Shown here: piece after piece, positions 2,600 through 56,023 of the stretch
How the letters are laid out: every line of letters starts with the position of its first letter
Numbering within the stretch: the stretch's first letter is position 1
Assembly: GCA_963575645.1 (NCBI GenBank)
Contig: OY754465.1
Location: 37,397,501-37,461,500 of the forward strand
Source: Xanthostigma xanthostigma
Lineage: Eukaryota; Arthropoda; Insecta; Raphidioptera; Raphidiidae
Length of the DNA stretch: 64,000 bases
Reading direction: 5' to 3'
Notes under the pieces: generated by a model
What the model was told of the DNA's origin: nothing
What the model saw: the letters and a program-made list of their open reading frames with translations, nothing else
Databases searched by the model: none
Made by a program: the position numbers and the translations under genes

Positions 2600-3040
2600 C
2601 AAATAAAAAATAAGTCCAAAAAAAAATAATTTAAATAAAAAATAAGTTCAAAAACTAAAACCCGATTACTAAAAAATATGAAAAGGCAAAATATATTTTA
2701 GAATTTTGGTTCCAGGGTGAGCAATTTGAAAATAAAAAATAAGTAAAAAAAATAATTTAAACATAAATTAAGTTCAAAAACTAAAACGTGACTACTGAAA
2801 TGTATGAAACAATAAAATATTCTCATATGAGGATAGCCGTGGTCGTATGCCACCACCCTAACAAAACAATACATTTTAACAATAGTAAGCGATCATAAGC
2901 TTTAGGGTAAAGTGCATCACGCTATATGACCATATAATATATTAGGTGGCATACGGACACGGCTATCCTCAGATGAGAATATTTTCTTGTTTTATACTTT
3001 TCAGTAGTTGGGTTTTAGTTTTTGTACTTAATTTTTTAAC
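2600..3040. repeat. Imperfect palindrome with an extra direct copy of one arm
   Basis: The arm around 2763-2869 (with ATGAGGATAGCCGTGG) recurs inverted at about 2945-3037 (CACGGCTATCCTCAGATGAG). An additional direct, more diverged copy of the outer arm lies at 2607-2700 ('AAGTTCAAAAACTAAAAC' phrase in each). The layout fits a small inverted-repeat transposon with duplicated arm sequence. No coding capacity. Confidence 0.55.
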
Positions 3041-9555: not shown

Positions 9556-10095
9556 GATTCACATAAACGTGATTTTATTCAACTAAAATTTTAATCATGG
9601 AGTCAAAATCGACAACTTTTGCAGTTTTTATTTGTGCATAAAATCGTACATTATTGAAGACATTGTAGTTTTCGATATACAGATCAAGTTACGAGTAGAA
9701 AGTAGGTATAGGTATCTATTGCGAGTTGTAAAAGTTACTGTTGGCAAAATGTTGACAAAGAACAGAAGAGATGTATTACGGAAGGACGTGTTTCTGTTAT
9801 CAATGAATTGATTGCTGGCGCATGCGATGTGTCGGCCAGACAAGGCATAGCTTGCATGTGAAACTTCGGTCGCTAGTGCGCAGTGGACCGGAGATCGAAA
9901 AATATATCCAAAATAACGAAGTTTTCAAGAATGAATCCAAATTACGTTAACCTTTTTGAGGAGAATATTAATACGAAACGAATCATTAAAAGAAGGTTGT
10001 AAATGGTGTGGTAGTATTATTAACCAGGTGGTTTTGTGTGGATTTTTTCAAACTATCTGTTTTCTTGGGGTGATTGGGCTTATACCATTATTATA
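9556..10095. other. Unassigned stretch
   Basis: No domain or repeat structure recognised. A minus-strand 71-codon frame at 9628-9843 shows nothing familiar. Confidence 0.3.
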
Positions 10096-11097
10096 CAGTG
10101 TGTTCATTTCAAAAGTATCCACCCTTAATAACTCCTGACCTGATGTGATTATTGTTTTGAGTGAAAACACGTCGATTTAGATATCGAGGGGGAAGTTCAA
10201 AAATGGAACCTAGAGAATTTTAGGTTTCATCCCCTAGCCCCCAGCCACCCCCACTTTGAAATTTCAAATGGCACCCCCTACCTTGTGATGCATCATTTGA
10301 AAGGGCATAAAATTCTCTATTCAACCATGATAAAAAAAATGAAATCGATCGATTGGTTCTTAAGATAGACTACACAGAAGATAAAAACGTTCTTCTTTCT
10401 TATTTGACACTTTTCCGCAACAAATACTACTTTTAACAAGATAACACTCGACAAAAGAAGTAAAGAAAACCGTACTGATGTTTGACAGAAATTGTTGCAT
10501 TTGTTTTTCCATAGCCGCCTTCGAAAACGACAAAAATCACATCCCATGGCTCGAGACTGTGTTTTTTCCATGCTGCGACGTAAGCAACATTCGTCAAAGT
10601 TCGTGAAGAGTTCCAAAACAGAAAGTATTTTTGTCTACCAAATAATGGTGGCCATTTCGAACATATCATAAAATAATTTCTTATGACTGTAATTTAAAAT
10701 AAATAATAATAAAGATTTGAATAATAATAAGTGTTTCAAAATGTTTGTTGAATTCAACAGTGCATCCAATCCGCAATGTTTTGCTAATAATAATTGATTT
10801 CATACCTTCCATCTTCTGTGTAGTCTATCTTAAGAACCAATCGATCGATTTCATTTTTTTTATCATGGTTGAATAGAGAATTTTATGCCCTTTCAAATGA
10901 TGCATCACAAGGTAGGGGGTGCCATTTGAAATTTCAAAGTGGGGGTGGCTGGGGGCTAGGAGATGAAACCTAAAATTCTCTAGGTTCCATTTTTGAACTT
11001 CCCCCTCGATATCTAAATCGACGTGTTTTCACTCAAAACAATAATCACATCAGGTCAGGAGTTATTAAGGGTGGATACTTTTGAAATGAACACACTA
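10096..11097. mobile_element. 1.0 kb foldback-type element with 287-bp inverted arms
   Basis: Arms 10096-10382 and 10811-11097 are almost identical inverses (I saw two differences by eye), starting CAGTGTGTTCATTTC. The 428-bp loop (10383-10810) has only short minus-strand frames (up to 99 codons, partly running into an arm) and no recognised domain. TATA (10092-10095 and 11098-11101) flanks both sides, consistent with a TA or TATA target duplication. The high arm identity suggests recent mobility or arm conversion. Confidence 0.8.
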
Positions 11098-11101
11098 TAT
11101 A

Positions 11102-11445
11102 ATAAATATAGTTTAAAAATACCAAAAAAAACACGCTTTATATCAAACTGAAAGTGAAAAATAAATATAGTTTAAAAAAAACTAAAAAACACGCTTTATA
11201 TCGAACTAAAAAGTAAAAAATAATTTTTTTAAAATAAGCTTAAAGAGCGTGGGGCACTTTGTTTCACATTTTCGTACATCGAGCGCCCCACGCTTTTTAA
11301 GCTTATTTTAAAAAAAATATTTTTTACTTTTTAGTTCGATATAAAGCGTGTTTTTTAGTTTTTTTTTTAACTATATTTATTTTTCACTTTTTAGTTTGAT
11401 ATAAAGCGTGTTTTTTAGTTTTTTTTAAACTATATTTATTTTCCA
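11102..11445. repeat. 340-bp palindrome of ~75-bp subrepeats
   Basis: Left half carries two direct copies of 'AACACGCTTTATATC', and the right half two inverted copies ('GATATAAAGCGTGTTTTTTA'). The centre lies near 11262 between AGAGCGTGGGGC and GCGCCCCACGCTTT. It starts directly after the 10096-11097 element. A related but diverged hairpin ('CCCACGCTTTTTA', 'TTTTTACTTTTTAGT') is at about 41140-41390. Confidence 0.7.
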
Positions 11446-11502
11446 CTTTTAGTTCGATTTATTGTCAAAAATTTGCCGGAAAAAAAACAATTTTTTTTTT
11501 CG

Positions 11503-14387: not shown

Positions 14388-14509
14388 ATATTTATTTTGT
14401 GTCAATTTATGTTGTTTATAGTAAAAACTGAGTTATTGTTAGTGTTCAGACACAATAACAATATCTCAATTTTTACTATAAACAACATAAATTGACACAA
14501 AATAAATAT
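14388..14509. repeat. 122-bp hairpin-forming inverted repeat
   Basis: 'ATATTTATTTTGTGTCAATT' at 14388 is inverted at 14490-14509, and the arms are near-identical for about 54 bp. The loop is about 14 bp. No flanking duplication recognised. Confidence 0.7.
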
Positions 14510-16019: not shown

Positions 16020-16720
16020 TTACTGACATCGTAAACTAAGAAAAAAAATTTGAAAAGAAGTTTGACCTTGCAGGCCATCCCTGTAACTTCCCGCTATTTT
16101 CGAGTTCAAAACGCTCAAAAATATATAAAATATAGCAAGAAGTTTATTTTTTAGCTCTTCGAGCTCAAAAAAGAACACTTTGTTACGAAATTTTCGTTCA
16201 CGATATCTCATGAACAAATGAACCGATTTTGATGCGATTTGCGGCAGTCGACGCAATTTTTTAACCTAAAAAAGTAATTTAATACAGAAAAATCGATCTC
16301 ATAGGAATTTTACGAGCAATTTAAAAAAAACACTTTTTTAAAAAATTTTCGTTCACGATATCTCGTGAACAAATGAGCCGATTTTGATGCGGTTTGCTGC
16401 AATCGACGCAGTTTTTTTAACCTAAGAAAGTAAATTATTACAAAAAAATCGATTTGATAAGAATTTTACGAGTAATTTTAAATAATTACTTTTTTCCTAA
16501 TTTTTCGTTCACGTTATCTCATGAACATATGAACCAATTTTGATATGGTTTGCGGCGATCGACGCAGTTTTTTTAGCCTAAGAAAGTAATTTATTACAAA
16601 AAAATCAATCTGATAACAATTTTAAGAGTCATTTTAAAAAAACACTTTTTTACGATTTTTTCGTTCACGGTTTCTCGTGAACAAATGAACCGATTTTGAT
16701 GCGGTTTGCGGAAATCGACG
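16020..16720 (+). repeat. Tandem repeat of ~157 bp, about four units, with 5' leader
   Basis: 'TTCGTTCACGATATCTC' recurs at about 16190, 16347, 16503 and 16660. Each is followed by 'GAACCGATTTTGATGCGGTT' variants and 'CGACGCAGTTTTTT'. The leader (16060-16185) has 'GCAGGCCATCCCTG' and 'ACTTCCCGCTATTTTCGAG'. An inverted copy of leader plus about two units lies at 37400-37790. Confidence 0.75.
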
Positions 16721-16956
16721 CAGTTTGTTAAGAAGAAGAGCTGATTAGTTTTTGGAATTAATCGGTTTAGTAGTTTAGAAATTTTTTTACAAAAACAAAT
16801 TTTTAAAAATTTTTGAAACTTGTTTTTTTAAGATTTCTCAAAATTTTTTGGGCCGAATCGTTTCAAATTTTCAGGAAGTCTAAGTTCACCAAGATCACGT
16901 CAGATGCCGCAAACCGCGTTTCAGTCGGACACTCCGTTCAAAAGATATAAAAGGTT

Positions 16957-18072: not shown

Positions 18073-18081
18073 GAAGATGGA
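18073..18081 (+). repeat. 9-bp target-site duplication, left (GAAGATGGA)
   Basis: Identical to 34869-34877. The two copies sit exactly outside the outermost bases of the inverted arms (GGCTCC at 18082, GGAGCC ending 34868). Confidence 0.85.
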
Positions 18082-18881
18082 GGCTCCGTGAAACCAGCCG
18101 CAACTTTGTTAGCCGCATGGACCAAAATGGGTGGGCTGGTTTGTGCTTCGTTTGTGCCCTTTCCTGCTTTAAAAATTTTCGTTCCTGCTTTTAGCGTTTC
18201 CGAGAAAATCGAAAATTTTATAACTGCGGCCAGGATCACGCCAGCCGCAACTTTTTTGATTTTGTAATTTTTTTACTTGCGGCTGGTTTGTGCTTCGTTT
18301 GTGCCCTTTCCTGCTCCAAAAAAATTCGTTCCTGCTTTTCGCGTTTCCGAGAAAATCGAAGAAATTTTAGCTGCGGCCAGGTTCACGCTAGCCGCAACTT
18401 TTTGGAATTTGTACATTTTTTACTTGCGGCTGGTTTGTGCTTCGTTTGTGCCTTTTCCTGCTTAAAAAAATTTCGTTCCTGCTTTTCCCGTTCTCGAGAA
18501 AATCAAAAAAGAAAATTCGGTAAGCGTGAAGTTAGCCGCAACTTTGTTAGCCGCACGGACCAAAATAGGTGGGATGGATTGAGCTTCGTTTGTGCCTTTT
18601 CCTGCTTAAAAAATTTTCGTTCCTGCTTTACGAGTTTCCGAGAAAAATACGAAAAAAGAAAATGCAATTCTACACTGACCGGCACAAAAAACGCAACACC
18701 TAAAATGATGACCAGTTTAGAATTGCAATAACTTTTAAACGTATCGCTCGACTTGAATGAGTTTTTTTTTATTTGAAAGGTCTATGCTTTGTCAATATTT
18801 CTGTAAGTGCTCTGCTCATTTTGGCGCTCTTCCATTTCGGCTGTAAAGAATAACGCTAATGCTCGTTTTCCCCATACACAT
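18082..18881 (+). repeat. Foldback outer arm, left: four ~147-bp subrepeats plus unique block
   Basis: The subrepeat core 'GGCTGGTTTGTGCTTCGTTT' starts near 18133, 18280 and 18427, with a diverged fourth near 18571. Each is followed by 'TTTCCTGCT', 'TTCGTTCCTGCTTT' and 'CGAGAAAATC'. 18661-18881 is a non-repeated block starting at 'ACTGACCGGCACAAAAAACG'. The mirror image is at 34069-34868. Confidence 0.8.
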
Positions 18882-21800
18882 TGAAATCTGTGTTTTTGCA
18901 TATTCTCTACTTGCAGCTCGAAAAACTGTTTAGAACTGCTAAAGTATTATGATGCGGCTGATTAGTGCCTACTATGGAAAGTTTCCTGCCTTCATAATAT
19001 GTTCGAAATATTTAACCCTTTCTAGAGAAAATCGACATATTCTAATATATCTGTGTTTTCACGTATTCTTGACGTGCGGCTCGAGAAACTGTTTGGAACT
19101 GCTGAAGTATTATGATGCGGATGATTAGTGCCTACTATGGAAAGATTCCTGCCTCCATAATATGTTCGGAATATTTAACCCTTTCTAAAGAAAATCGACA
19201 TATTATAATATATCTGTGTTTTTACTTATTCTGGACGTGCGGCTCGAGAAACTGTTTGGAACTGCTGATGTATTATGACGCGGCTGATTAGTGCCTACTG
19301 TGGAAAGATTCCTGCCTTCATAATATGTTCGGAAAACTTAACCCTCTCTGGAGAAAATCGACATATTCTAATATATCTGTGTTTTTACTTATTCTGGACG
19401 TGCGGCTCGAGAAACTGTTTGGAACTGCTGAAGTATTATGACGTGGCTGATTAGTGCCTACTATGGAAAGATTCCTGCCTTCATAATATGTTCGGAAAAT
19501 TTAACCCTTTATAGAGAAAATCGACATATTCTAATATATCTGTGTTTTTACGTATTCTGGACGTGCGGCTCGACAAACTGTTTGGAACTGCTGAAGTATT
19601 ATGCCGCGGCTGATTAGTGCCTACTATGGAAAGATTCCTGCCTTCATAATATGTTCGGAAAATTTAACCCTTTTTGGAGAAAATCGACATATTCTAATAT
19701 ATCTATGTTTTTACGTATTCTGGACGTGCGGCTCGACAAACTGTTTGGAACTGCTGAATTATTATGATGCGGATGATTAGTGCCTACTATGGAAAGATTC
19801 CTGCCTCCATAATATGTTCGGAATATTTAACCCTTTCTAAAGAAAAACGACATATTCTAATATATCTGTGTTTTTACGTATTCTGGACGTGCGGCTCGAC
19901 AAACTGTTTGGAACTGCTGAAGTATTATGACGTGGCTGATTAGTGCCTACTATGGAAAGATTCCTGCCTTCATAATATGTTCGGAATATTTAACCCTTTC
20001 TAAAGAAAATCGACATATTCTAATATATCTGTGTTTTTACTTATTCTGGACGTGCGGCTCGAGAAACTGTTTGGAACTGCTGAAGTAATATGACGCGGCG
20101 GATTAGTGCCTACTATGGAAAGATTCCTGCCTCCATAATATGTTCGGAATATTTAACCCTTTCTAAAGAAAATCGACATATTCTAATATATCTGTGTTTT
20201 TACTTATTCTGGACGTGCGGCTCGAGAAACTGTTTGGAACTGCTGAAGTATTATGACGCGGCTGATTAGTGCCTACTATGGAAAGATTCCTGCCTTCATA
20301 ATATGTTCGGAAAATTTAACCCTTTGTAGAGAAAATCGACATATTCTCATATATCTGTGTTTTTACGTATTCTGGACGTGCGGCTCGAAAAACTGTTTGG
20401 AACTGCTGAAGTATTATGTTGCGGCTGATTAGTACCTACTATGGAAAAATTCCTGCCTTCATAATATGTTCGGAAAATTTAACCCTTTTTGGAGAAAATC
20501 GACATATTCTAATATATCTATGTTTTTACGTATTCTGGACGTGCGGCTCGACAAACTGTTTGGAACTGCCGATGTATTATGACTCAGCTGATTAGTGCCT
20601 ACTATGGAAAGATTCCTGCCTTCATAATATGTTCGGAAAATTTAACCCTTTATAGAGAAAATCGACATATTCTAATATATCTGTGTTTTTACGTATTCTG
20701 GACGTGCGGCTCGACAAACTGTTTGGAACTGCTGAAGTATTATGACGTGGCTGATTAGTGCCTACTATGGAAAGATTCCTGCCTTCATAATATGTTCGGA
20801 AAATCTAACCCTTTTTGGAGAAAATCGACATATTCTAATATATCTATGTTTTTACGTATTCTGGACGTGCGGCTCGACAAACTGTTTGGAACTGCTGATG
20901 TATTATGACTCGGCTGATTAGTGCCTACTATGGAAAGATTCCTGCCTTCATAATATGTTCGGAAAATTTAACCCTTTATAGAGAAAATCGACATATTCTA
21001 ATATATCTGTGTTTTTACGTATTCTGGACGTGCGGCTCGACAAACTGTTTGGAACTGCTAAAGTATTATGACGTGTCTGATTAGTGCCTACTATGGAAAG
21101 ATTCCTGCCTTCATAATATGTTCGAAAAATCTAACCCTTTTTTGAGAAAATCGACATTTTCTAATATATCTATGTTTTTACGTATTCAGGACGTGCGGCT
21201 CGACAAACTGTTTGGAACTGCTGATGTATTATGACTCGGCTGATTAGTGCCTACTATGGAAAGATTCCTGCCTTCATAATATGTTCGGAAAATTTAACCC
21301 TTTATAGAGAAAATCGACATATTCTAATATATCTGTGTTTTTACGTATTCTGGACGTGCGGCTCGACAAACTGTTTGGAACTGCTAAAGTATTATGACGT
21401 GGCTGATTAGTGCCTACTATGGAAAGATTCCTGCCTCCATAATATGTTCGGAATATTTAACCCTTTCTAAAGAAAATCGACATATTCTAATATATCTGTG
21501 TTTTTACTTATTCTGGACGTGCGGCTCGACAAACTGTTTGGAACTGCTAAAGTATTATGACGCGGCTGATTAGTGCCTACTATGGAAAGATTCCTGCCTC
21601 CATAATATGTTCGGAATATTTAACCCTTTCTAAAGAAAATCGACATATTCTAATATATCTGTGTTTTTACCTATTCTGGACGTGCGGCTCGAGAAACTGT
21701 TTGGAACTGCTGAAGTATTATGACGCGGCTGATTAGTGCCTACTATGGAAAGATTCCTGCCTTCATAATATGTTCGGAAAATTTAACCCTTTTTGGAGAA

Positions 21801-24800
21801 AATCGACATATTCTAATATATCTATGTTTTTACGTATTCTGGACGTGCGGCTCGACAAACTGTTTGGAACTGCTGATGTATTATGACGCGGCTGATTAGT
21901 GCCTACTATAGAAAGATTCCTGCCTTCATAATATGTTCGGAAAATTTAACCCTTTATAGAGAAAATCGACATATTCTAATATATCTGTGTTTTTACGTAT
22001 TCTGGACGTGCGGCTCGACAAACTGTTTGGAACTGCTGATGTATTATGACGCGGCTGATTAGTGCCTACTATGGAAAGATTCCTGCCTTCATAATATGTT
22101 CGGAAAATTTAACCTTTTATAGAGAAAAACGACATATTCTAATATATCTGTGTTTTTACGTATTCTGGACATGCGGCTCGACAAACTGTTTGGAACTGCT
22201 GAAGTATTATGACGTGGCTGTTTAGTGCCTACTATGGAAAGATTCCTGCCTTCATAATATGTTCGGAAAATTTAACCCTTTCTAGAGAAAATCGACATAT
22301 TCTCATATATCTGTGTTTTTACGTATTCTGGATGTGCGGCTCGAAAAACTGTTTGGAACTGCTGAAGTATTATGTTGCGGCTGATTATTACCTACTATGG
22401 AAAGATTCCTGCCTTCATAATATGTTCGGAAAATTTAACCCTTTCCAGAGAAAATCGACATATTCTAATATATCTGTGTTTTTACTTATTCTGGACGTGC
22501 GGCTCGAGAAACTGTTTGGAACTGCTGAAGTATTATGACGCTGCTGATTAGTGCCTACTATGGAAAGATTCCTGCCTTCATAATATGTTCGGAAAATTTA
22601 ACCCTTTATAGAGAAAATCGACATATTCTAATATATCTGTGTTTTTACGTATTCTGGACGTGCGGCTCGAGAAACTGTTTGGAACTGCTGATGTATTATG
22701 ACGCGGCTGATTAGTGCCTACTGTGGAAAGATTCCTGCCTTCATAATATGTTCGGAAAATTTAACCCTCTCTGGAGAAAATCGACATATTCTAATGTATC
22801 TGTGTTTTTACGTATTCTGGACGTGCGGCTCGACAAACTGTTTGGAACTGCTGAAGTATTATGATGCGGATGATTAGTGCCTACTATGGAAAGATTCCTG
22901 CCTTCATAATATGTTCGGAAAATTTAACCCTTTTTGGAGAAAATCGACATATTCTAATATATCTGTGTTTTTACTTATTCTGGACGTGCGGCTCGAGAAA
23001 CTGTTTGGAACTGCTGAAGTATTATGACGCGGCTGATTAGTGCCTACTATGGAAAGATTCCTGCCTTCATAATATATTCGGAAAATTTAACCCTTTATAG
23101 AGAAAATCGACATATATCTGTGTTTTTACGTATTCTGGACGTGCGGCTCGACAAACTGTTTGGAACTGCTGATGTATTATGACGCGGCTGATTAGTGCCT
23201 ACTATGGAAAGATTCCTGCCTTCATAATATGTTCGGAAAATTTAACCCTTTGTAGAGAAAATCGACATATTCTCATATATCTGTGTTTTTACGTATTCTG
23301 GACGTGCGGCTCGAAAAACTGTTTGGAACTGCTGAAGTATTATGTTGCGGCTGATTAGTACCTACTATGGAAAAATTCCTGCCTTCATAATATGTTCGGA
23401 AAATTTAACCCTTTTTGGAGAAAATCGACATATTCTAATATATCTATGTTTTTACGTATTCTGGACGTGCGGCTCGACAAACTGTTTGGAACTGCCGATG
23501 TATTATGACTCAGCTGATTAGTGCCTACTATGGAAAGATTCCTGCCTTCATAATATGTTCGGAAAATTTAACCCTTTATAGAGAAAATCGACATATTCTA
23601 ATATATCTGTGTTTTTACGTGTTCTGGACGTGCGGCTCGACAAACTGTTTGGAACTGCTGATGTATTATGACGCGGCTGATTAGTGCCTACTATGGAAAG
23701 ATTCCTGCCTTCATAATATGTTCGGAAAATTTAACCCTTTATAGAGAAAATCGACATATTCTAATATATCTGTGTTTTTACGTATTCTGGACGTGCGGCT
23801 CGACAAACTGTTTGGAACTGCTGAAGTATTATGACGTGGCTGATTAGTGCCTACTATGGAAAGATTCCTGCCTTCATAATATGTTCGAAAAATTTAACCC
23901 TTTCTAGAGAAAATCGACATATTCTCATATATCTGTGTTTTTACGTATTCTGGATGTGCGGCTCGAAAAACTGTTTGGAACTGCTGAAGTATTATGTTGC
24001 GGCTGATTAGTACCTACTATGGAAAGATTCCTGCCTTCATAATATGTTCGGAAAATTTAACCCTTTCCAGAGAAAATCGACATATTCTAATATATCTGTG
24101 TTTTTACTTATTCTGGACGTGCGGCTCGAGAAACTGTTTGGAACTGCTGAAGTATTATGACGCGGCTGATTAGTGCCTACTATGGAAAGATTCCTGCCTT
24201 CATAATATGTTCGGAAAATTTAACCCTTTATAGAGAAAATCGACATATTCTAATATATCTGTGTTTTTACGTATTCTGGACGTGCGGCTCGAGAAACTGT
24301 TTGGAACTGCTGATGTATTATGACGCGGCTGATTAGTGCCTACTATGGAAAGATTCCTGCCTTCATAATATGTTCGGAAAATCTAACCCTTTTTGGAGAA
24401 AATCGACATTTTCTAATATATCTATGTTTTTACGTATTCAGGACGTGCGGCTCGACAAACTGTTTGGAACTGCTGAAGTATTATGACGCGGCTGATTAGT
24501 GCCTACTATGGAAAGATTCCTGCCTCCATAATATGTTCGGAATATTTAACCCTTTCTAAAGAAAATCGACATATTCTAATATATCTGTGTTTTTACTTAT
24601 TCTGGACGTGCGGCTTGACAAACTGTTTGGAACTGCTAAAGTATTATGACGCGGCTGATTAGTGCCTACTATGGAAAGATTCCTGCCTCCATAATATGTT
24701 CGGAATATTTAACCCTTTCTAAAGAAAATCGACATATTCTAATATATCTGTGTTTTTACTTATTCTGGACGTGCGGCTCGAGAAACTGTTTGGAACTGCT

Positions 24801-26925
24801 GAAGTATTATGACGCGGCTGATTAGTGCCTACTATGGAAAGATTCCTGCCTTCATAATATGTTCGGAAAATTTAACCCTTTTTGGAGAAAATCGACATAT
24901 TCTAATATATCTATGTTTTTACGTATTCTGGACGTGCGGCTCGACAAACTGTTTGGAACTGCTGATGTATTATGACGCGGCTGATTAGTGCCTACTATAG
25001 AAAGATTCCTGCCTTCATAATATGTTCGGAAAATTTAACCCTTTATAGAGAAAATCGACATATTCTAATATATCTGTGTTTTTACGTATTCTGGACGTGC
25101 GGCTCGACAAACTGTTTGGAACTGCCGATGTATTATGACGCGGCTGATTAGTGCCTACTATGGAAAGATTCCTGCCTTCATAATATGTTCGGAAAATTTA
25201 ACCCTTTATAGAGAAAATCGACATATTCTAATATATCTGTGTTTTTACGTATTCTGGACGTGCGGCTCGACAAACTGTTTGGAACTGCTGAAGTATTATG
25301 ACGTGGCTGATTAGTGCCTACTATGGAAAGATTCCTGCCTTCATAATATGTTCGGAAAATTTAACCCTTTCTAGAGAAAATCGACATATTCTCATATATC
25401 TGTGTTTTTACGTATTCTGGATGTGCGGCTCGAAAAACTGTTTGGAACTGCTGAAGTATTATGTTGCGGCTGATTATTACCTACTATGGAAAGATTCCTG
25501 CCTTCATAATATGTTCGGAAAATTTAACCCTTTCCAGAGAAAATCGACATATTCTAATATATCTGTGTTTTTACTTATTCTGGACGTGTGGCTCGAGAAA
25601 CTGTTTGGAACTGCTAAAGTATTATGACGCGGCTGATTAGTGCCTACTATGGAAAGATTCCTGCCTTCATAATATGTTCGGAAAATTTAACCCTTTGTAG
25701 AGAAAATCGACATATTCTCATATATCTGTGTTTTTACGTATTCTGGTCGTGCGGCTCGAAAAACTGTTTGGAACTGCTGAAGTATTATGTTGCGGCTGAT
25801 TAGTACCTACTATGGAAAAATTCCTGCCTTCATAATATGTTCGGAAAATTTAACCCTTTTTGGAGAAAATCGACATATTCTAATATATCTATGTTTTTAC
25901 GTATTCTGGACGTGCGGCTCGACAAACTGTTTGGAACTGCCGATGTATTATGACTCAGCTGATTAGTGCCTACTATGGAAAGATTCCTGCCTTCATAATA
26001 TGTTCGGAAAATTTAACCCTTTATAGAGAAAATCGACATATTCTAATATATCTGTGTTTTTACGTATTCTGGACGTGCGGCTCGACAAACTGTTTGGAAC
26101 TGCTGAAGTATTATGACGCGGCTGATTAGTGCCTACTATGGAAAGATTCCTGCCTTCATAATATGTTCGGAAAATTTAATCCTACCCAGAGAAAATCGAC
26201 ATATTCTCACAAATCTGTGTTTTTACTTATTCTGGACGTGCGGCTCGAGAAACTGTGTAGAACTGCTGATGTATTATGACGCGGCTGATTAGTGCCTTCT
26301 ATGGAAAGATTGCTGCCTTCATAATATGTTCGGAAAATTTAATCCTACCCAGAGAAAATCGACATATTCTCACAAATCTGTGTTTTTACTTATTCTGGAC
26401 GTGCGGCTCGAGAAACTGTGTGGAACTGCTGATGTATTATGACGCGGCTGATTAGTGCCTACTATGGAAAGATTCCTGCCTCCATAATATGTTCGGAATA
26501 TTTAACCCTTTCTAGAGAAAATCGACATATTCTAATATATCTGTGTTTTTACTTATTCTGGACGTGCGGCTCGAGAAACTGTTTGGAACTGCTGATGTAT
26601 TATGACGCGACTGATTAGTGCCTTCTATGGAAAGATTCCTGCCTTCATAATATGTTCGGAAAATTTAATCCTACCCAGAGAAAATCGACATATTCTCACA
26701 AATCTGTGTTTTTGCGTATTATCTACTTGCGGCTCGAAAAACTGTTTAGAACTGCTGAAGTATTATGATGCGGCTGATTAGTGCCTTATATGGAAAGATT
26801 TCTGCCTTTCTAATATATTCGGAAAATTTAACCCTTTTTAGTGAAAATCGACATATCCTAACAAATCTGTGTTTTTACATATTCTCGACTTGTGGGCTCG
26901 AGAAACTGTTTAAACTACTGCATTA
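18882..26925 (+). repeat. 163-bp tandem array, left arm, about 49 copies
   Basis: Period measured between 'GGACGTGCGGCTCGA' occurrences at 19233, 19396 and 19559 is 163. Each unit has 'GGCTGATTAGTGCCTACTAT', 'GATTCCTGCCTTCATAATAT', 'TTTAACCC' and 'GAGAAAATCGACATATTCT'. Variants (GAGAAACTG, GACAAACTG or GAAAAACTG; CTTATT or CGTATT) recur in blocks, showing higher-order duplication. One unit near 23112 lacks 8 bp. Open frames across it are chance, because 163 is not a multiple of three. Confidence 0.9.
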
Positions 26926-26931
26926 TTATAA

Positions 26932-28449
26932 ATTTCTGCAAAAAAATAGGAGAGCAAAAAAATTTTTTGAATTTTTAGTAATTTTTCAGAATGCTGTATC
27001 TCAGTTAAAATTTGTCGTATCGAGGTTTTAAAAAAAGCATTTTAAAGCGCTGAATGTCTAGTTTTTAGAATTTTTGGCTTAAAATTTTTAGGAGCGACAG
27101 TCATCGCAAAATTCTAAGAAAGTACACGAAACAATTTTTTTTTCATTTTTTGCGTTTTTTTTCTCGGTCCACGGGCTTGGAAAAATTTTTTACTCAAAAA
27201 TTATGATATGGCCTGTTCATCAGCTTTATATTCTTTTTTTAAATTTTTCTTTACGTTAATTTTTGACCCGGAGATATTCGACTACAAAAGCCTTTTTTTG
27301 ACTGTAACCATCGATATCTCAGCAACTAATGATCAGACAGAAAATTGACGGGCAGTTTCAAAATCTTGAATAATTTTCCTATAAGGTTATGTAGTGTTCT
27401 TGGAAGAAGAAAATTTTCTTTCATCCTCGATATCAACTTGAAAAAAGTGAAAAAAAGTGACTTTTTGACTTGTTTTGCTAAGTCGACCTTATCTTTGCTA
27501 ATATCGGTGGAAAGTCTAATGCTTGTACGAATTTTTACACCTCGATGTACCCCCAAGAGCTCCGTAAATCGGTAGATCGATCTATCGAACGGTTTTTCCG
27601 GACCGCTTAATCAAAATTTCAGAAAAATTTAAAGGAGCAAATTCAATAAGCAAAAGATGCCCAATTGTGAAAGAATTGAAAAAAAATCAAATTCATTTAT
27701 ACGAACATTACAGGGTGTTCAGAATTGTAAATTTTGCTCCTTTAAATTTTTCTGAAATTTTGATTAAGCGGTCCGGAAAAACCGATCGATAGTTCGATCT
27801 GTCGATTTACGGAGCTCTTGGGGGTACAATGAGGTGTAAAAATTCGTACAAGCATTAGACTTGCCACCAATATTAGCAAATATGCGGTCAACTTAGCAAA
27901 ACAAGTCAAAAAGTCACTTTTTTTCACTTTTTTCAAGTTAATATCGAGGATGAAAGAAAATTTTTTTCTTCCAAGAACACTACATAGCCTTGTAGGAAAT
28001 TTATTCGAGATTTTGAAACTGCCCGTCAATTTTCTGTCTGATCATTAGTTGCTGAGATATCGATGGTTAAAATCAAAAGGATGCTTTTGTATTCGTAGTC
28101 GAATATCTCCGGGTCAAATTAACGTAGAGAAAAATTTAAAAAAAGAAATTAAAGCTGAATGAACAGGCTATCAAGTCCACATCATGATTTTTGTGAAAAA
28201 AATTTTTCCAAGCCCGTGGACCGAGAAAAAAAGGCAAAAAATAAAAAAAAAATTTTTTTGTGTTCTTTCTTACAATTTCGCGATGACTGTCGTAAAAATT
28301 TTAAGCTAAAATCTGAAAACTAGACATTCAGCGCTTTAAAATGCTTTTTTTAAAATCTCAATGCGACTAATTTTAACTGAGATACAGCTTTCTGAAAAAT
28401 CACTAAAAATTCGAAAAATTTTTTTGCTCCCTTAATTTTTTGCAGAAAT
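26932..28449. mobile_element. 1.5 kb inverted-repeat module in the foldback loop
   Basis: Starts ATTTCTGCAAAAAA and ends with the inverse 'TTTTTTGCAGAAAT'. Arms of about 710 bp (26932-27642 and 27729-28449) pair through 'CTGTATCTCAGTTAAAATT', 'CATTTTAAAGCGCTGAATGTC', 'CGGTCCACGGGCTTGG', 'GAAAATTGACGGGCAGTTTC' and other blocks, with scattered mismatches. The centre is near 27690. Open frames on the arms mirror each other and carry no recognised domain. Probably an insertion or founding segment of the loop. Confidence 0.75.
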
Positions 28450-28711
28450 GTAGTAGACCTAGTGCATTCTTTAAATATACGGAATGTTTCGTAATAGCAC
28501 GGAGCCATAAGTACCTATGTATTTTCTTACAAATAATTGCCAAAAAAAAAAAAAAAACCTATAAATTTAGAGGTAAATTAATTTTTATAACTAAGTCATT
28601 AAGAAATACAGATATTTTTTGACCATACAACTTTCAGAGTATTAATTCGAAATATCTACCCCTATCTTGTTGTTTTCTTGGGTTAATTAAAAATTAAAAT
28701 TTTTAATTTAA

Positions 28712-29418
28712 GGGGGTACTCGCTCGAATTTTTGGAAAAAATCATACATTTTTGAACGGGTCTCAAAGAAAGAGGGAGGCAGATAGAAAATTGATTTTTT
28801 TTATTTTACATAATCTTCATTTTACATATCCTTCTACCATAATATGTTCATTTTTTTTGACGCGCACGCCCCACGCGCATGCGCACAGCTGTCTGTATAT
28901 CAGGAGACCTTTAAAAAAAGGCGGGTTCGATCAGCGCTTTCGAGAACATCCTAGAACAAAAAAAAAAAATATTCTTAAAGTAGAAGAGTCAAACTTCGCA
29001 TTAACGGATGGAAATTAAAAAAAAATCGATTTTAGAGAAATGGCGCATCTACGAAAAAAACCTCGGAAACGCTAGAAAATTTGAGGAAAAAACGGTTACT
29101 GAATCGCGAAATTTTTTTTTATCAGAATTTCCATCCGTCAACGCGAAGTTGGACTCTTCTATTTTAAGAATACATTTTTTTTGTTGTTCTAGGATGTTCT
29201 GGAAAGCGCTGATCGGGCCCGCCGTTTTTTCATTGTTTCCTGAGATACAGACAGCTGTGCGCAAGCGCGTGGAGCGCGCGCGTCAAAAAAAATGGGCATA
29301 TGGTAGAAGGATATGTAAATAAAATTTTAAAAAAATCAATTCTCTATCTGCCTTCCTCTTTCTTTGACACTCGTTCAAAAATGTATGATTTTTTCCGAAA
29401 ATTCGAGCGAGTACCCCC
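28712..29418. mobile_element. 0.7 kb TTAA-flanked inverted-repeat module in the foldback loop
   Basis: Begins GGGGGTACTCGCTCG and ends CGAGCGAGTACCCCC, with TTAA on both sides (28708-28711 and 29419-29422). Arms run for about 300 bp with mismatches and meet near 29065. TTAA duplication is the piggyBac-group habit. The termini resemble those of the 36061-37212 element (GGTAGTACGAGC). No transposase. Frames at 28752-29018 and 29008-29322 are mirror-image artefacts of the palindrome. Confidence 0.75.
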
Positions 29419-29547
29419 TTAAATGATTGTTTTTGCTTTTTCACTTAATTTCGCATCTTAATTATTCAAATGACTTTAAAAGTTAAATGTGTCAGTACGC
29501 TCGCAAAGATAATCTTTTTAGTATAAGTCGATCATTTTTGTAAAATT

Positions 29548-29774
29548 AATCCCATCAAAAACATAAATGTGAAAACGGGAGCCAAGTTTAATAATCAATA
29601 AATAAGGAATTGAGATCTAAAAAGGTGTCAAATTTTCACCAAGCAAGTGTTCGTTTATTATGATTTATACCTAAACTTCATGTTTATTTGTGTGAAAACT
29701 TGCCAATTGAAAACTTAGCACCTTTTTAGAACTCTTTTGCATTGAATTTTTACGCTTATGTTTTTGATGGGATT
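29548..29774. repeat. 227-bp imperfect palindrome in the foldback loop
   Basis: 'AATCCCATCAAAAACATAA' at 29548 is inverted at 29756-29774. Further inside, 'TCTAAAAAGGTGTCAA' pairs with 'TTAGCACCTTTTTAGA'. Third inverted module in the loop, next to the right array. Confidence 0.65.
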
Positions 29775-29825
29775 TCATTACTTTCTGTAAACAAATTATT
29801 ATTATTTATCAGTCAAAAGTGATTT

Positions 29826-32800
29826 TTGAGAATATGTCGATTTTCTCTGGGAAGGATAAAATTTTCCGAACATATTATTATTATAAAGGCAGGAATCTTT
29901 CCATAGTAGGCATTAATCAGCCGCATAATAATACTTCAGCAGTTCAAAACAGTTTTTAGAGCCGCAATCCGAGAATATATAAAAACACATATTTGTGAGA
30001 ATATGTCGAATTTCTCTAGAAAGAGTTAAATTTTCCGAACATATTATGAAGGCAGGAATCTTTCCATAGTAGGCACTAATCAGCCGCGTCATAATACATC
30101 AGCAGTTCCAAACAGTTTCTCGAGCCGCACGTCCAGAATAAGTAAAAACACAGATATATTAGAATATGTCGATTTTCTCCAGAAAGGGTTAAATTTTCCG
30201 AACATATTATGAAGGCATGAATCTTTCCATAGTAGGCACTAATCAGCCGCGTCATAATACATCAGCAGTTCCACACAGTTTCTCGAGCCGCACGTCCAGA
30301 ATACGTAAAAACACAGATATATGAGAATATGTCGATTTTCTCTAGAAAGGGTTAAATTTTCCGAATATATTATGGAGGCAGGAATCTTTCCATAGTAGGC
30401 ACTAATCAGCCGCGTCATAATACATCAGCAGTTCCAAACAGTTTTTCGAGCCGCACGTCCAGAATACGTAAAAACACAGATATATGAGAATATGTCGATT
30501 TTCTCTAGAAAGGGTTAAATTTTCCGAACATATTATGGAGGCAGGAATCTTTCCATAGTAGGCACTAATCAGCCGCGTCATAATACATCAGCAGTTCCAA
30601 ACAGTTTCTCGAGCCGCACGTCCAGAATAAGTAAAAACACAGATATATTAGAATATGTCGATTTTCTCTAGAAAGGGTTAAATTTTCCGAACATATTATG
30701 GAGGCAGGAATCTTTCCATAGTAGGCACTAATCAGCCGCGTCATAATACATCAGCAGTTCCAAACAGTTTCTCGAGCCGCACGTCCAGAATAAGTAAAAA
30801 CACAGATATATTAGAATATGTCGATTTTCTCTAGAAAGGGTTAAATTTTCCGAACATATTATGAAGGCAGGAATCTTTCCATAGTAGGCACTAATCATCC
30901 TTATTATAATACTTCAGCAGTTCCAAACAGTTTCTCGAGCCGCACGTCCAGAATAAGTAAAAACACAGATATATGAGAATATGTCGATTTTCTTTAGAAA
31001 GGGTTAAATATTCCGAACATATTATGGAGGCAGGAATCTTTCCATAGTAGGCACTAATCAGCCGCGTCATAATACATCAGCAGTTCCAAACAGTTTTTCG
31101 AGCCGCACGTCCAGAATACGTAAAAACACAGATATATGAAAATATGTCGATTTTCTCCAGAAAGGGTTAAATTTTCCGAACATATTATGAAGGCATGAAT
31201 CTTTCCATAGTAGGCACTAATCAGCCGCGTCATAATACTTCAGCAGTTCCAAACAGTTTCTCGAGCCGCACGTCCAGAATAAGTAAAAACACAGATATAT
31301 TAGAATATGTCGATTTTCTCTAGAAAGGGTTAAATTTTCCGAACATATTATGAAGGCAGGAATCTTTCCATAGTAGGTACTAATCAGCCGCAACATAATA
31401 CTTCAGCAGTTCCAAACAGTTTTTCGAGCCGCACGTCCAGAATACGTAAAAACACAGATATATTAGAATATGTCGATTTTCTCCAAAAAGGGTTAAATTT
31501 TCCGAACATATTATGAAGGCAGGAATCTTTCCATAGTAGGCACTAATCATCCGCATCATAATACTTCAGCAGTTCCAAACAGTTTGTCGAGCCGCACGTC
31601 CAGAATGCGTAAAAACACAGATACATTAGAATATGTCGATTTTCTCCAGAGAGGGTTAAATTTTCCGAACATATTATGAAGGCAGGAATCTTTCCACAGT
31701 AGGCACTAATCAGCCGCGTCATAATACATCAGCAGTTCCAAACAGTTTCTCGAGCCGCACGTCCAGAATACGTAAAAACACAGATATATTAGAATATGTC
31801 GATTTTCTCTATAAAGGGTTAAATTTTCCGAACATATTATGAAGGCAGGAATCTTTCCATAGTAGGCACTAATCAGCCGCGTCATAATACTTCAGCAGTT
31901 CCAAACAGTTTCTCGAGCCGCACGTCCAGAATAAGTAAAAACACAGATATATTAGAATATGTCGATTTTCTCTGGAAAGGGTTCAATTTTCCGAACATAT
32001 TATGAAGGCAGGAATCTTTCCATAGTAGGTAATAATCAGCCGCAACATAATACTTCAGCAGTTCCAAACAGTTTTTAGCCGCACATCCAGAATACGTAAA
32101 AACACAGATATATGAGAATATGTCGATTTTCTCTAGAAAGGGTTAAATTTTCCGAACATATTATGAAGGCAGGAATCTTTCCATAGTAGGCACTAATCAG
32201 CCACGTCATAATACTTCAGCAGTTCCAAACAGTTTGTCGAGCCGCACGTCCAGAATACGTAAAAACATAGATATATTAGAATATGTCGATTTTCTCCAAA
32301 AAGGGTTAAATTTCCTGAACATATTATGAAGGCAGGAATTTTTCCATAGTAGGTACTAATCAGCCGCAACATAATACTTCAGCAGTTCCAAACAGTTTTT
32401 CGAGCCGCACGTCCAGAATACATAAAAACACAGATATATGAGAATATGTCGATTTTCTCTACAAAGGGTTAAATTTTCCGAACATATTATGAAGGCAGGA
32501 ATCTTTCCATAGTAGGCACTAATCAGCCACGTCATAATACTTCAGCAGTTCCAAACAGTTTGTCGAGCCGCACGTCCAGAATACGTAAAAACACAGATAT
32601 ATTAGAATATGTCGATTTTCTCTATAAAGGGTTAAATTTTCCGAACATATTATGAAGGCAGGAATCTTTCCATAGTAGGCACTAATCAGCCGAGTCATAA
32701 TACATCAGCAGTTCCAAACAGCTTGTCGAGCCGCACGTCCAGAATACGTAAAAACATAGATATATTAGAATATGTCGATTTTCTCCAAAAAGGGTTAGAT

Positions 32801-34068
32801 TTTCCGACCATATTATGAAGGCAGGAATCTTTCCATAGTAGGCACTAATCAGCCGCGTCATAATACATCAGCAGTTCCAAACAGTTTGTCGAGCCGCACG
32901 TCCAGAATACGTAAAAACACAGATATATTAGAATATGTCGATTTTCTCTATAAAGGGTTAAATTTTCCGAACATATTATGAAGGCAGGAATCTTTCCATA
33001 GTAGGCACTAATCAGCTGAGTCATAATACATCGGCAGTTCCAAACAGTTTGTCGAGCCGCACGTCCAGAATACGTAAAAACATAGATATATTAGAATATG
33101 TCGATTTTCTCCAAAAAGGGTTAAATTTTCCGAACATATTATGAAGGCAGGAATCTTTCCATAGTAGGCACTAATCAGCCGCGGCATAATACTTCAGCAG
33201 TTCCAAACAGTTTGTCGAGCCGCACGTCCAGAATACGTAAAAACATAGATATATTAGAATATGTCGATTTTCTCCAAAAAGGGTTAGATTTTCCGAACAT
33301 ATTATGAAGGCAGGAATCTTTCCATAGTAGGCACTAATCAGCCACGTCATAATATTTCAGCAGTTCCAAACAGTTTGTCGAGCCGCACGTCCAGAATACG
33401 TAAAAACACAGATATATTAGAATATGTCGATTTTCTCTATAAAGGGTTAAATTTTCCGAACATATTATGAAGGCAGGAATCTTTCCATAGTAGGCACTAA
33501 TCAGCCACGTCATAATACTTCAGCAGTTCCAAACAGTTTCTCGAGCCGCACGTCCAGAATAAGTAAAAACACAGATATATTAGAATATGTCGATTTTCTC
33601 CAGAGAGGGTTAAGTTTTCCGAACATATTATGAAGGCAGGAATCTTCTACAGTAGGCACTAATCAGCCGCGTCATAATACATCAGCAGTTCCAAACAGTT
33701 TCTCGAGCCGCACGTCCAGAATAAGTAAAAACACAGATATATTATAATATGTCGATTTTCTTTAGAAAGGGTTAAATATTCCGAACATATTATGGAGGCA
33801 GGAATCTTTCCATAGTAGGCACTAATCATCCGCATCATAATACTTCAGCAGTTCCAAACAGTTTCTCGAGCCGCACGTCAAGAATACGTGAAAACACAGA
33901 TATATTAGAATATGTCGATTTTCTCTAGAAAGGGTTAAATATTTCGAACATATTATGAAGGCAGGAAACTTTCCATAGTAGGCACTAATCAGCCGCATCA
34001 TAATACTTTAGCAGTTCTAAACAGTTTTTCGAGCTGCAAGTAGAGAATATGCAAAAACACAGATTTCA
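29826..34068 (-). repeat. 163-bp tandem array, right arm, about 26 copies
   Basis: Same unit as the left array in opposite orientation (reads 'TCGAGCCGCACGTCCAGAAT'). About 26 copies against about 49 on the left, so the arms are asymmetric. The innermost unit (29826-29990) and outermost unit (near 34000) match the corresponding innermost and outermost units of the left arm. Confidence 0.9.
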
Positions 34069-34868
34069 ATGTGTATGGGGAAAACGAGCATTAGCGTTAT
34101 TCTTTACAGCCGAAATGGAAGAGCGCCAAAATGAGCAGAGCACTTACAGAAATATTGACAAAGCATAGACCTTTCAAATAAAAAAAAACTCATTCAAGTC
34201 GAGCGATACGTTTAAAAGTTATTGCAATTCTAAACTGGTCATCATTTTAGGTGTTGCGTTTTTTGTGCCGGTCAGTGTAGAATTGCATTTTCTTTTTTCG
34301 TATTTTTCTCGGAAACTCGTAAAGCAGGAACGAAAATTTTTTAAGCAGGAAAAGGCACAAACGAAGCTCAATCCATCCCACCTATTTTGGTCCGTGCGGC
34401 TAACAAAGTTGCGGCTAACTTCACGCTTACCGAATTTTCTTTTTTGATTTTCTCGAGAACGGGAAAAGCAGGAACGAAATTTTTTTAAGCAGGAAAAGGC
34501 ACAAACGAAGCACAAACCAGCCGCAAGTAAAAAATGTACAAATTCCAAAAAGTTGCGGCTAGCGTGAACCTGGCCGCAGCTAAAATTTCTTCGATTTTCT
34601 CGGAAACGCGAAAAGCAGGAACGAATTTTTTTGGAGCAGGAAAGGGCACAAACGAAGCACAAACCAGCCGCAAGTAAAAAAATTACAAAATCAAAAAAGT
34701 TGCGGCTGGCGTGATCCTGGCCGCAGTTATAAAATTTTCGATTTTCTCGGAAACGCTAAAAGCAGGAACGAAAATTTTTAAAGCAGGAAAGGGCACAAAC
34801 GAAGCACAAACCAGCCCACCCATTTTGGTCCATGCGGCTAACAAAGTTGCGGCTGGTTTCACGGAGCC
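34069..34868 (-). repeat. Foldback outer arm, right
   Basis: Inverse of 18082-18881 with matching offsets: unique block first, then ~147-bp subrepeats, ending GGTTTCACGGAGCC. Confidence 0.85.
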
Positions 34869-34877
34869 GAAGATGGA
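34869..34877 (+). repeat. 9-bp target-site duplication, right (GAAGATGGA)
   Basis: Identical to 18073-18081. Removing the element and one copy restores a continuous 'AGTGAAGATGGATCATC' target. Confidence 0.85.
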
Positions 34878-36060: not shown

Positions 36061-37212
36061 GGTAGTACGAGCACCAAGGCAATTTTAAATAAAAGGCTTG
36101 ATTTTTTTTATATGAAGTTGGACTAAGTCTAAACCATTTGTTAAAATTTTAGGGGGTTTGCCCGACTATTTAAATAAATAAATGACTTCAAAAGTAGGCA
36201 TATTTAACATTGACTTTATAGTAAAACGGCAGATGGATGATATGTTTTCATAGATTTCTCCAAAACTAGTCGGTGGAAATTAAAAAAAAAAAAACTATTT
36301 AAATTAAAGTTTAAACCTTAATAAATTATTGAAAACAAAAAAAATTGGTTGTCTGTAAAGTCGGTTTACGGACGATAGTTTTACGTGATAACGTATTCCG
36401 TAATACATAACCTAAATTTATATAATAATTATAATAATTCGAATCTATGATATTGCATCTTTCGCTTCAAATTTAGGTTAATTTTATTTATTTAAATTAC
36501 TCACCATATAATATTTCTTAATAAATAATAAATAATATATTCTTCCGTATTTATTTTAAGTCTCAAAGATTAGCTGTCATAATATTTATAAAACAATTGT
36601 TTCACTGTTTATAATATAAAATTCCAAAACCTACTTACAATATTTAAGTATTTTCATACGTCAAAAAATTGATTTTGATAATGATAAAATTTGTAAGAAA
36701 ACGATTTTTTCGAGAGATGAGACCTAGCTAAAACGATTTTTTGCCCCCCAAAATCCCTTTTCAGTAAATTTCATCCAAATCGTTAGGGCCGTTTTCGAGA
36801 AAAGCACGCACAGGGTCAGGCGGAACGTTACGCGTTACGCGTTACGAACGTTAGGAACGTTACGTTACACTTTTTCGAACATGCAGCCGGTGTTTTATCA
36901 ATTTATAAGATTGGTGATTCATCAATTTATAAGACGTTATCACGTCAAAAAAACCCATTGTGCCCGACTAATTAAAAAGATATTTAATTAAAAAGTTTAA
37001 ATATCTTTTTAATTAGTCGGGCACAACGGGTTTTTTTTGTTTCTTTTTGTTTTCAATGATATATTAAGGTTTTAACTTTAATTTAAATAGTTTTTTTTTA
37101 ATTTCCACCGACTAGTTTTGGAGAAATCAATGAAAACATGTATCATCCATCTACCGAAATATAAAAAAAAATCAAGCCTTTTGTTTAAAGTTGCCTTGGC
37201 GCTCGTACTACC
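36061..37212. mobile_element. 1.15 kb TTAA-flanked inverted-repeat element
   Basis: Begins GGTAGTACGAGCACCAAGGC and ends GCGCTCGTACTACC, with TTAA at 36057-36060 and 37213-37216. Inverted similarity extends about 270 bp on the left and 200 bp on the right ('ACTAGTCGGTGGAAATT' against 'AATTTCCACCGACTAGT'). The interior holds a second tight hairpin at about 36946-37033 ('CCCGACTAATTAAAAAGATA' inverted). No transposase frame. A piggyBac-type non-autonomous element is the best reading of TTAA. Confidence 0.75.
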
Positions 37213-37400: not shown

Positions 37401-37790
37401 CAATTTTAAAAAACCTTTCGCCGCAAACCGCATCAAAATCGGTTCATTTGTTCACGGGATATCGTGAACGAGAAATTAAAAAAGCGTGTTTTTTTTAAAT
37501 TAGTTGTAACATTCTTATCAGATCGATTTTTTTGTGATAATTTACTTGCCTAGGTTAAAAAAACTGCGTCCATAACCGCAAACCGCATTAAAATCGGCTC
37601 ATTTTTTCACGAGATATCGTGAACGAAAAATTCGTATGAAAGTGTTTTTTTTTTTTTGAGTTTGAAGAGCTAACAAATTAACTTCTCGCTATATTTTATA
37701 TATTTTTGTGCGTTTTGAACTCGAAAATAGCGGGAAGTTTCAGGGATGGCCTGCAGGGTCAAACTTTTTGTCAAATTTTTTAAAATTTAT
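37400..37790 (-). repeat. Inverted copy of the 157-bp repeat and leader
   Basis: Reverse of part of 16020-16720: 'CAAACCGCATCAAAATCGG', 'ATATCGTGAACGA', 'AAAATAGCGGGAAGTTTCAG' and 'GGATGGCCTGCAGGGTC'. About two units plus leader. Confidence 0.7.
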
Positions 37791-55805: not shown

Positions 55806-56023
55806 TTTAAAGAATAGCTTCTGTTGCTACATTGTTGAAACACCCATTGTTACATGTCTATATTAGAAAAATTTATTTCTCAAACAATGTCACCATCGGG
55901 ATACGAACCCCGAATCTTTCCACTATCGCGGCGGACTGACATTGTTTGAGAAATAAATTTTTCTAATATAGACATGTAACAATGGGTGTTTCAACAATGT
56001 AGCAACAGAAGCTATTCTTTAAA
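55806..56023. repeat. Perfect 87-bp inverted repeat closing on a tRNA-like loop
   Basis: Left arm 55806-55892 and right arm 55937-56023 are exact reverse complements over all 87 bases (TTTAAAGAATAGC...CAATGTCA). The 44-nt loop (55893-55936) on the minus strand contains a perfect T-arm helix TCGGG-GTTCGTAT-CCCGA with B-box character, and CCGC/GTGG helix bases before it. No direct duplication beyond the arms was identified. No coding frame. Confidence 0.9.

Follow-up and report, generated by a model that had tools for sequence, protein, structure and literature searches.

The window analysed here is a stretch of 64,000 nucleotides from the genome of Xanthostigma xanthostigma (Insecta, Raphidioptera; contig OY754465.1 of assembly GCA_963575645.1, positions 37,397,501 to 37,461,500). 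It contains, at positions 18082-34868, an element of 16,787 bp which is bounded by its own inverted ends. The features of this element and of its borders are, in order of position:

18073..18081, plus strand: target-site duplication, left copy (GAAGATGGA), directly abutting the inverted end
18082..19301, plus strand: left end, inverted repeat free of mismatches over 1,220 bp (the first one being at offset 1220)
18134..18510, plus strand: 2.6 tandem copies of outer 147-bp units, apparently diverged relatives of the 163-bp unit
18525..18584, plus strand: internal second copy of the tip sequence (CGTGAA inward), matching the outermost 65 bp over 60 bp without a gap
18886..26929, plus strand: left 163-bp array, 49.4 copies, 48 whole monomers by segmentation
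26930..29828, no strand: asymmetric core of 2.9 kb, in which the ORFs tested show no recognisable coding domain
26929..28452, no strand: palindrome of 1.5 kb directly adjoining the left array on its inner side, arms 87% identical, no clear target duplication
28712..29418, no strand: palindromic element of 0.7 kb in the core, arms 80% identical, TTAA on both sides (28708-29422 overall), GGGGGTACTCGCTCG ends
29549..29776, no strand: short inverted repeat in the core with CCCATCAAAAACAT ends, found by eye and end match, below the length threshold of the palindrome search
29829..34064, minus strand: right 163-bp array, 26.0 copies (segmentation: 25 whole monomers)
33649..34868, minus strand: right end, counterpart of the left end, likewise free of mismatches over 1,220 bp up to offset 1220
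34441..34816, minus strand: outer 147-bp units, mirror copy
34869..34877, plus strand: target-site duplication, right copy (GAAGATGGA), directly abutting the inverted end

The two plus-strand copies of GAAGATGGA form an exact 9-bp target-site duplication immediately outside both ends of the element, precisely where the first-pass annotation had placed them; one further occurrence in the window lies on the other strand. At the base composition of the window, two given places would agree over 9 bp with a probability of about 1e-5. This value, the ungapped identity of the inverted ends over 1,220 bp, which begins exactly at the duplication, and the monomer order shared by the two arms (see below) leave practically no room for the null explanation, in favour of which nothing was found, that two separate satellite arrays face each other by chance and that the duplication is accidental. 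The arms had been described as alike over the outer ~800 bp; they are identical there, but this figure is too short by several hundred base pairs. In a gapped alignment of the arms over 2,001 columns, 2 differences are found within the first ~1,513 columns and 6 before column 1677; from about this column the register is lost, and the last 324 columns contain 22 differences, one of them being the end gap. When as many as 3 mismatches are allowed, the 20-base tip matches the two element ends and no third place in the window.

From the tip inward, either arm is composed of the tip, 2.6 units of 147 bp, the second tip copy, a spacer, and the 163-bp array, which adds up to arm lengths of about 8.8 kb (left) and 5.0 kb (right). 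The copy numbers of 49.4 and 26.0 are those of Tandem Repeats Finder, while the numbers 48 and 25 refer to whole monomers from segmentation. Duplication of the tip within the arm has also been reported for plant MULEs that have tandem ends (PMC3310237). Comparison of the outer arm with the doubled 163-bp consensus gave a local score of 54, as opposed to a mean of 26.1 (sd 3.8, largest 40) in 300 first-order shuffles, and the 147-bp and 163-bp units appear to share a common ancestor. The opposite orientation of the 163-bp arrays, which had been recognised at first reading, is confirmed. In this one element, long inverted ends with tandem repeats are thus arranged around a middle and carry the target-site duplication directly outside, which supports the initial proposal of a very large foldback-type element with tandem-repeat arms. 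Palindromes and satellites are difficult to assemble, and foldback artefacts are known from long reads (PMC12870357); a simple read artefact would, on the other hand, mirror one arm and would not create a target duplication. Three observations make an artefact of reads or assembly highly unlikely: the unequal arm lengths (48 and 25 whole monomers), the asymmetry of the core, and the exact duplication of 9 bp outside the ends.

The two larger palindromes of the core look like other, older palindromic elements that are nested inside, with 28708-29422 looking like a TTAA-targeting non-coding element. Thirty ORFs were scanned against Pfam, namely 16 of the 110 ORFs with 62 or more amino acids in the flanks, 12 of the 24 ORFs with 45 or more amino acids that overlap the core, and two arm ORFs, and none of them reached a curated cut-off. 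The best score in the core set had an E value of 0.087; the best one overall (E 0.0008; 20.6 bits versus a cut-off of 25.5) came from a repetitive arm ORF. No MULE-type transposase was found among the 14 scanned ORFs of the element, neither the arm ORF nor one ORF of the flanks had a relative at E 0.001 in protein searches, and there was no Rfam match at gathering scores. As judged from the ORFs scanned, the element is apparently non-coding.

The window is rich in hairpin-forming repeats. A short palindrome at 11101-11440 has tandem units of ~60 bp on either side (2.1 copies at 11101-11223; 2.4 copies at 11318-11458), which makes it a small foldback-like structure, and adjoins a 295-bp inverted repeat of 99.3% identity (10088-10382 / 10811-11105). 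Left of the element, a 156-bp tandem array (16169-16726; 3.6 copies) is found, inverted relatives of which (about 82-87%) occur right of the element at 37420-37781, both lying outside the target duplication. Further short palindromes with an arm identity of 73-93% are located at 55806-56023, 14388-14509, 2765-3034, and 36947-37037. The palindromes elsewhere in the window were considered as relatives of the element and were dismissed, their ends being different from those of the element, the tip of which is GGCTCCGTGAAACC. The short AT-rich repeats next to them, such as TTAA, TTTAAA, and TATA, could be due to chance.

Other copies were sought with four patterns, one from the tip, one from the outer arm, and two from the satellite, none of which had an exact match in viral contigs. 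An 18-base satellite pattern gave nine single matches in prokaryote genomes, the chance estimate for equal base frequencies and both strands being 7-8, and four viral loci matched a pattern derived from the terminus of the TTAA palindrome. These 13 loci were rejected as relatives; none aligns to the window at E 1e-5. The viral and prokaryotic DNA collections scanned yielded no second copy, no empty site, no transposase, and no autonomous relative, and among the literature matches listed there was no foldback element with 163-bp arm repeats.

The history of the arrays can be approached through their monomers. Mean differences per 163 positions amount to 9.5 within the left array, 9.9 within the right array, and 9.6 between the arrays (about 6%), and monomers at the same position of the two arms are close for the first few only. 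Beyond monomer 5, the order of monomers is collinear; a gapped alignment of monomers scores 29.8, compared to 16.6 for the reversed order. When both arrays were shuffled 1,000 times, the scores averaged 17.9 and did not exceed 27.4; when the right array alone was shuffled 1,000 times, they averaged 19.6 and peaked at 29.3. The observed score was thus not reached in either case, though in the latter by a narrow margin. The alignment follows a single scoring scheme that was set once by the analyst, and alternative paths may score nearly as well, given the internal duplications of the left array. Within the latter, the block L16-22 is repeated as L35-41 with 0-3 differences per 163-bp monomer. 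The run statistics are mixed. Left-left runs have a longest value of 7, which exceeds the largest value of the shuffles (5), and a total of 25, which is inside their range (largest 33); between the arms, the total of 31, end monomers included, exceeds the shuffle maximum of 30, and the longest run of 4 is within range (largest 6). Right-right runs are unexceptional (longest 3, total 3; largest shuffle values 4 and 8, respectively).

Because the monomer order is collinear beyond the near-identical ends, it is concluded that the arms would either descend from one array in inverted duplicate or would later have exchanged long stretches. The left arm has probably grown by block duplication, as suggested by its repeated monomers. 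Divergence is highest in the innermost monomers, L48 and R25, with 16 and 17 differences from the consensus, respectively; values for the neighbouring L45, L46, and L47 are 12, 13, and 6, and the remaining monomers have 1-9 differences, except for 11 at L26 and R19. Such a distribution is as expected if exchange homogenises the interior of an array and is rare at its innermost monomers.

The absence of any difference over the 1,220 positions of the ends corresponds to a divergence below about 0.25%, which is to be compared with the monomer divergence of about 6%. Either the insertion would be young and the array already diverse on arrival, or the ends would have been homogenised between the arms. 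Both possibilities had been named in the first-pass annotation, and both remain; the evidence leans towards arm conversion, since the outer ends (2 differences in ~1,513 positions) are more alike than the best-aligned inner monomer pairs (22 differences in 1,956 positions; Fisher p 0.0003). The inner pairs were picked for likeness, so that their divergence is, if anything, underestimated; they may, however, be paralogous, which tempers the inference.

Among known transposons, the FB and FB-NOF elements of Drosophila share the foldback form, the tandem-repeat arms, and the 9-bp duplication. The repeat unit and the arms of FB are much shorter than the 163-bp unit and the arms described here, and, as a further difference, the ORFs tested here revealed no coding core. 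In drawing its comparison with FB, the first-pass annotation misses a nearer precedent with arm units of ~220 bp, which is Tetris of Drosophila virilis (PMC4079207). Compared by structure, on the basis of its description, Tetris is the closest described case. It is non-autonomous and devoid of conserved ORFs, as would apply here for the ORFs tested, and its ends are described as three-part, including an outer flanking domain of up to 866 bp and the ~220-bp tandem repeats. The target duplications comprise 8-9 bp in three complete copies and 9-10 bp in four rearranged ones. The Tetris repeats have been amplified to satellite arrays, with long arrays between two flanking domains being visible on DNA fibres, and its authors likewise suggest Mutator (PMC4079207). 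In contrast to the present arms of about 8.8 and 5.0 kb, which are built from the 163-bp unit and the related 147-bp outer unit, the Tetris ends are reported to reach 1,735 bp with units of ~220 bp (PMC4079207).

Composite ends of foldback-like structure are also described for Tm1 of root-knot nematodes, in which 45 of 53 complete elements have duplications of 8-10 bp, most commonly of 9 bp (PMC3169594). Different from the present element, Tm1 has an internal motif of ~14 bp and asymmetric terminal motifs of 7 bp, and one described element measures 1,080 bp; some copies encode a putative transposase (PMC3169594), for which no counterpart was found here in the ORFs tested. The Aedes MULEs Muta1 and Muta5 combine duplications of 8-9 bp with subterminal tandem repeats, as is the case here; unlike here, those repeats have 9-15 bp, the ends 145 and 151 bp, and the coding elements 3.2 and 3.5 kb (PMC5225508).

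A Mutator-type transposase is proposed because the duplication length and the long repetitive ends are as in Tetris, Tm1, and the Aedes MULEs. The original assignment to a Mutator-like class remains provisional: the length of the duplication and the long ends with their internal repeats point to it, but no transposase was found in the 14 scanned ORFs and no second copy in the DNA collections scanned. The 9-bp duplication falls into the Mutator range of 8-10 bp and the ends are long (1,220 bp), but these features are not exclusive to Mutator, and duplication length plus long ends alone are insufficient to name a superfamily. Foldback form may evolve in different lineages (PMC4079207), and Galileo of the P superfamily has foldback-like ends that can contain, in the F copies of one subfamily, tandem repeats of ~210 bp (PMC3573991). 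Its described bounding sequences are, however, of 7 bp and not of 9 bp as found here, and its ends reach about 1.26 kb (PMC3573991). Membership in such another superfamily is, therefore, rather improbable, though it retains some chance.

Taken together, the unit at 18082-34868 is very probably a non-autonomous foldback DNA transposon of the Tetris/FB type of ~16.8 kb, which would be mobilised in trans, most likely by a Mutator transposase, and the arms of which have grown to satellite scale. The 9-bp target duplication would have arisen when the element was inserted. The repetitive ends would be bound by a transposase from another locus, most likely one of the Mutator superfamily, which would move the element in trans. 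Inside the arms, the 163-bp units would be amplified by unequal exchange and block duplication, a step that is read from the monomer pattern, and the result would be two facing satellite arrays that still share their monomer order. The outer 1.2-1.5 kb would stay identical through either young insertion or arm-to-arm conversion.

A separate matter is when the arrays reached their present length. A small foldback with few repeats per arm could have been inserted and the arrays could have grown in place, which would leave a stationary satellite locus of transposon origin; this explanation opposes the transport of long arrays, not the foldback reading as such. It is quite possible, if short of probable. 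The arrays differ almost twofold (48 versus 25 monomers), with internal block duplications in the left one, and for Tetris, alleles are described to vary in repeat number, and amplification within the element to have produced arrays of as many as 66 copies (PMC4079207). In addition, the efficacy of DNA transposition is stated in a review on giant transposons to be significantly lower above 6 kb of cargo (PMC6431247), which argues against movement at full length and for at least partial growth after insertion. Against growth in place, the contrast between 0 differences in 1,220 positions at the ends and 9.5-9.9 per 163 positions among monomers would make the monomer diversity far older than the insertion, unless the ends were converted, and the collinear order would imply that a large part of the array either existed before the arms separated or passed from one arm to the other by copying. 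That the whole 16.8-kb unit transposed as one piece, with both kilobase-size satellite arrays already in place, can accordingly be put forward only tentatively, as somewhat doubtful.

Large repeat units in foldback arms and their expansion to satellite scale are already known from Tetris (PMC4079207). What is new for the probable foldback transposon described here is its scale and completeness, with long arms that are still inside one element together with both ends and the duplication. As far as the literature consulted shows, the question of whether satellites originate from foldback elements rests on Tetris, the complete copies of which are described with ends of at most 1.7 kb and the long arrays of which are either rearranged or seen by fibre-FISH (PMC4079207). 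An intact, duplication-bounded element with two ordered arrays represents an in-between stage at base resolution, and the comparison of its left and right arms is one of satellite array expansion within a single element. It poses the question of whether a ready-made array can jump. If transposition as one piece were true, the element would carry ready-made inverted satellite arrays to new sites and seed them there, and its two ordered arms would record the growth of each array since insertion.
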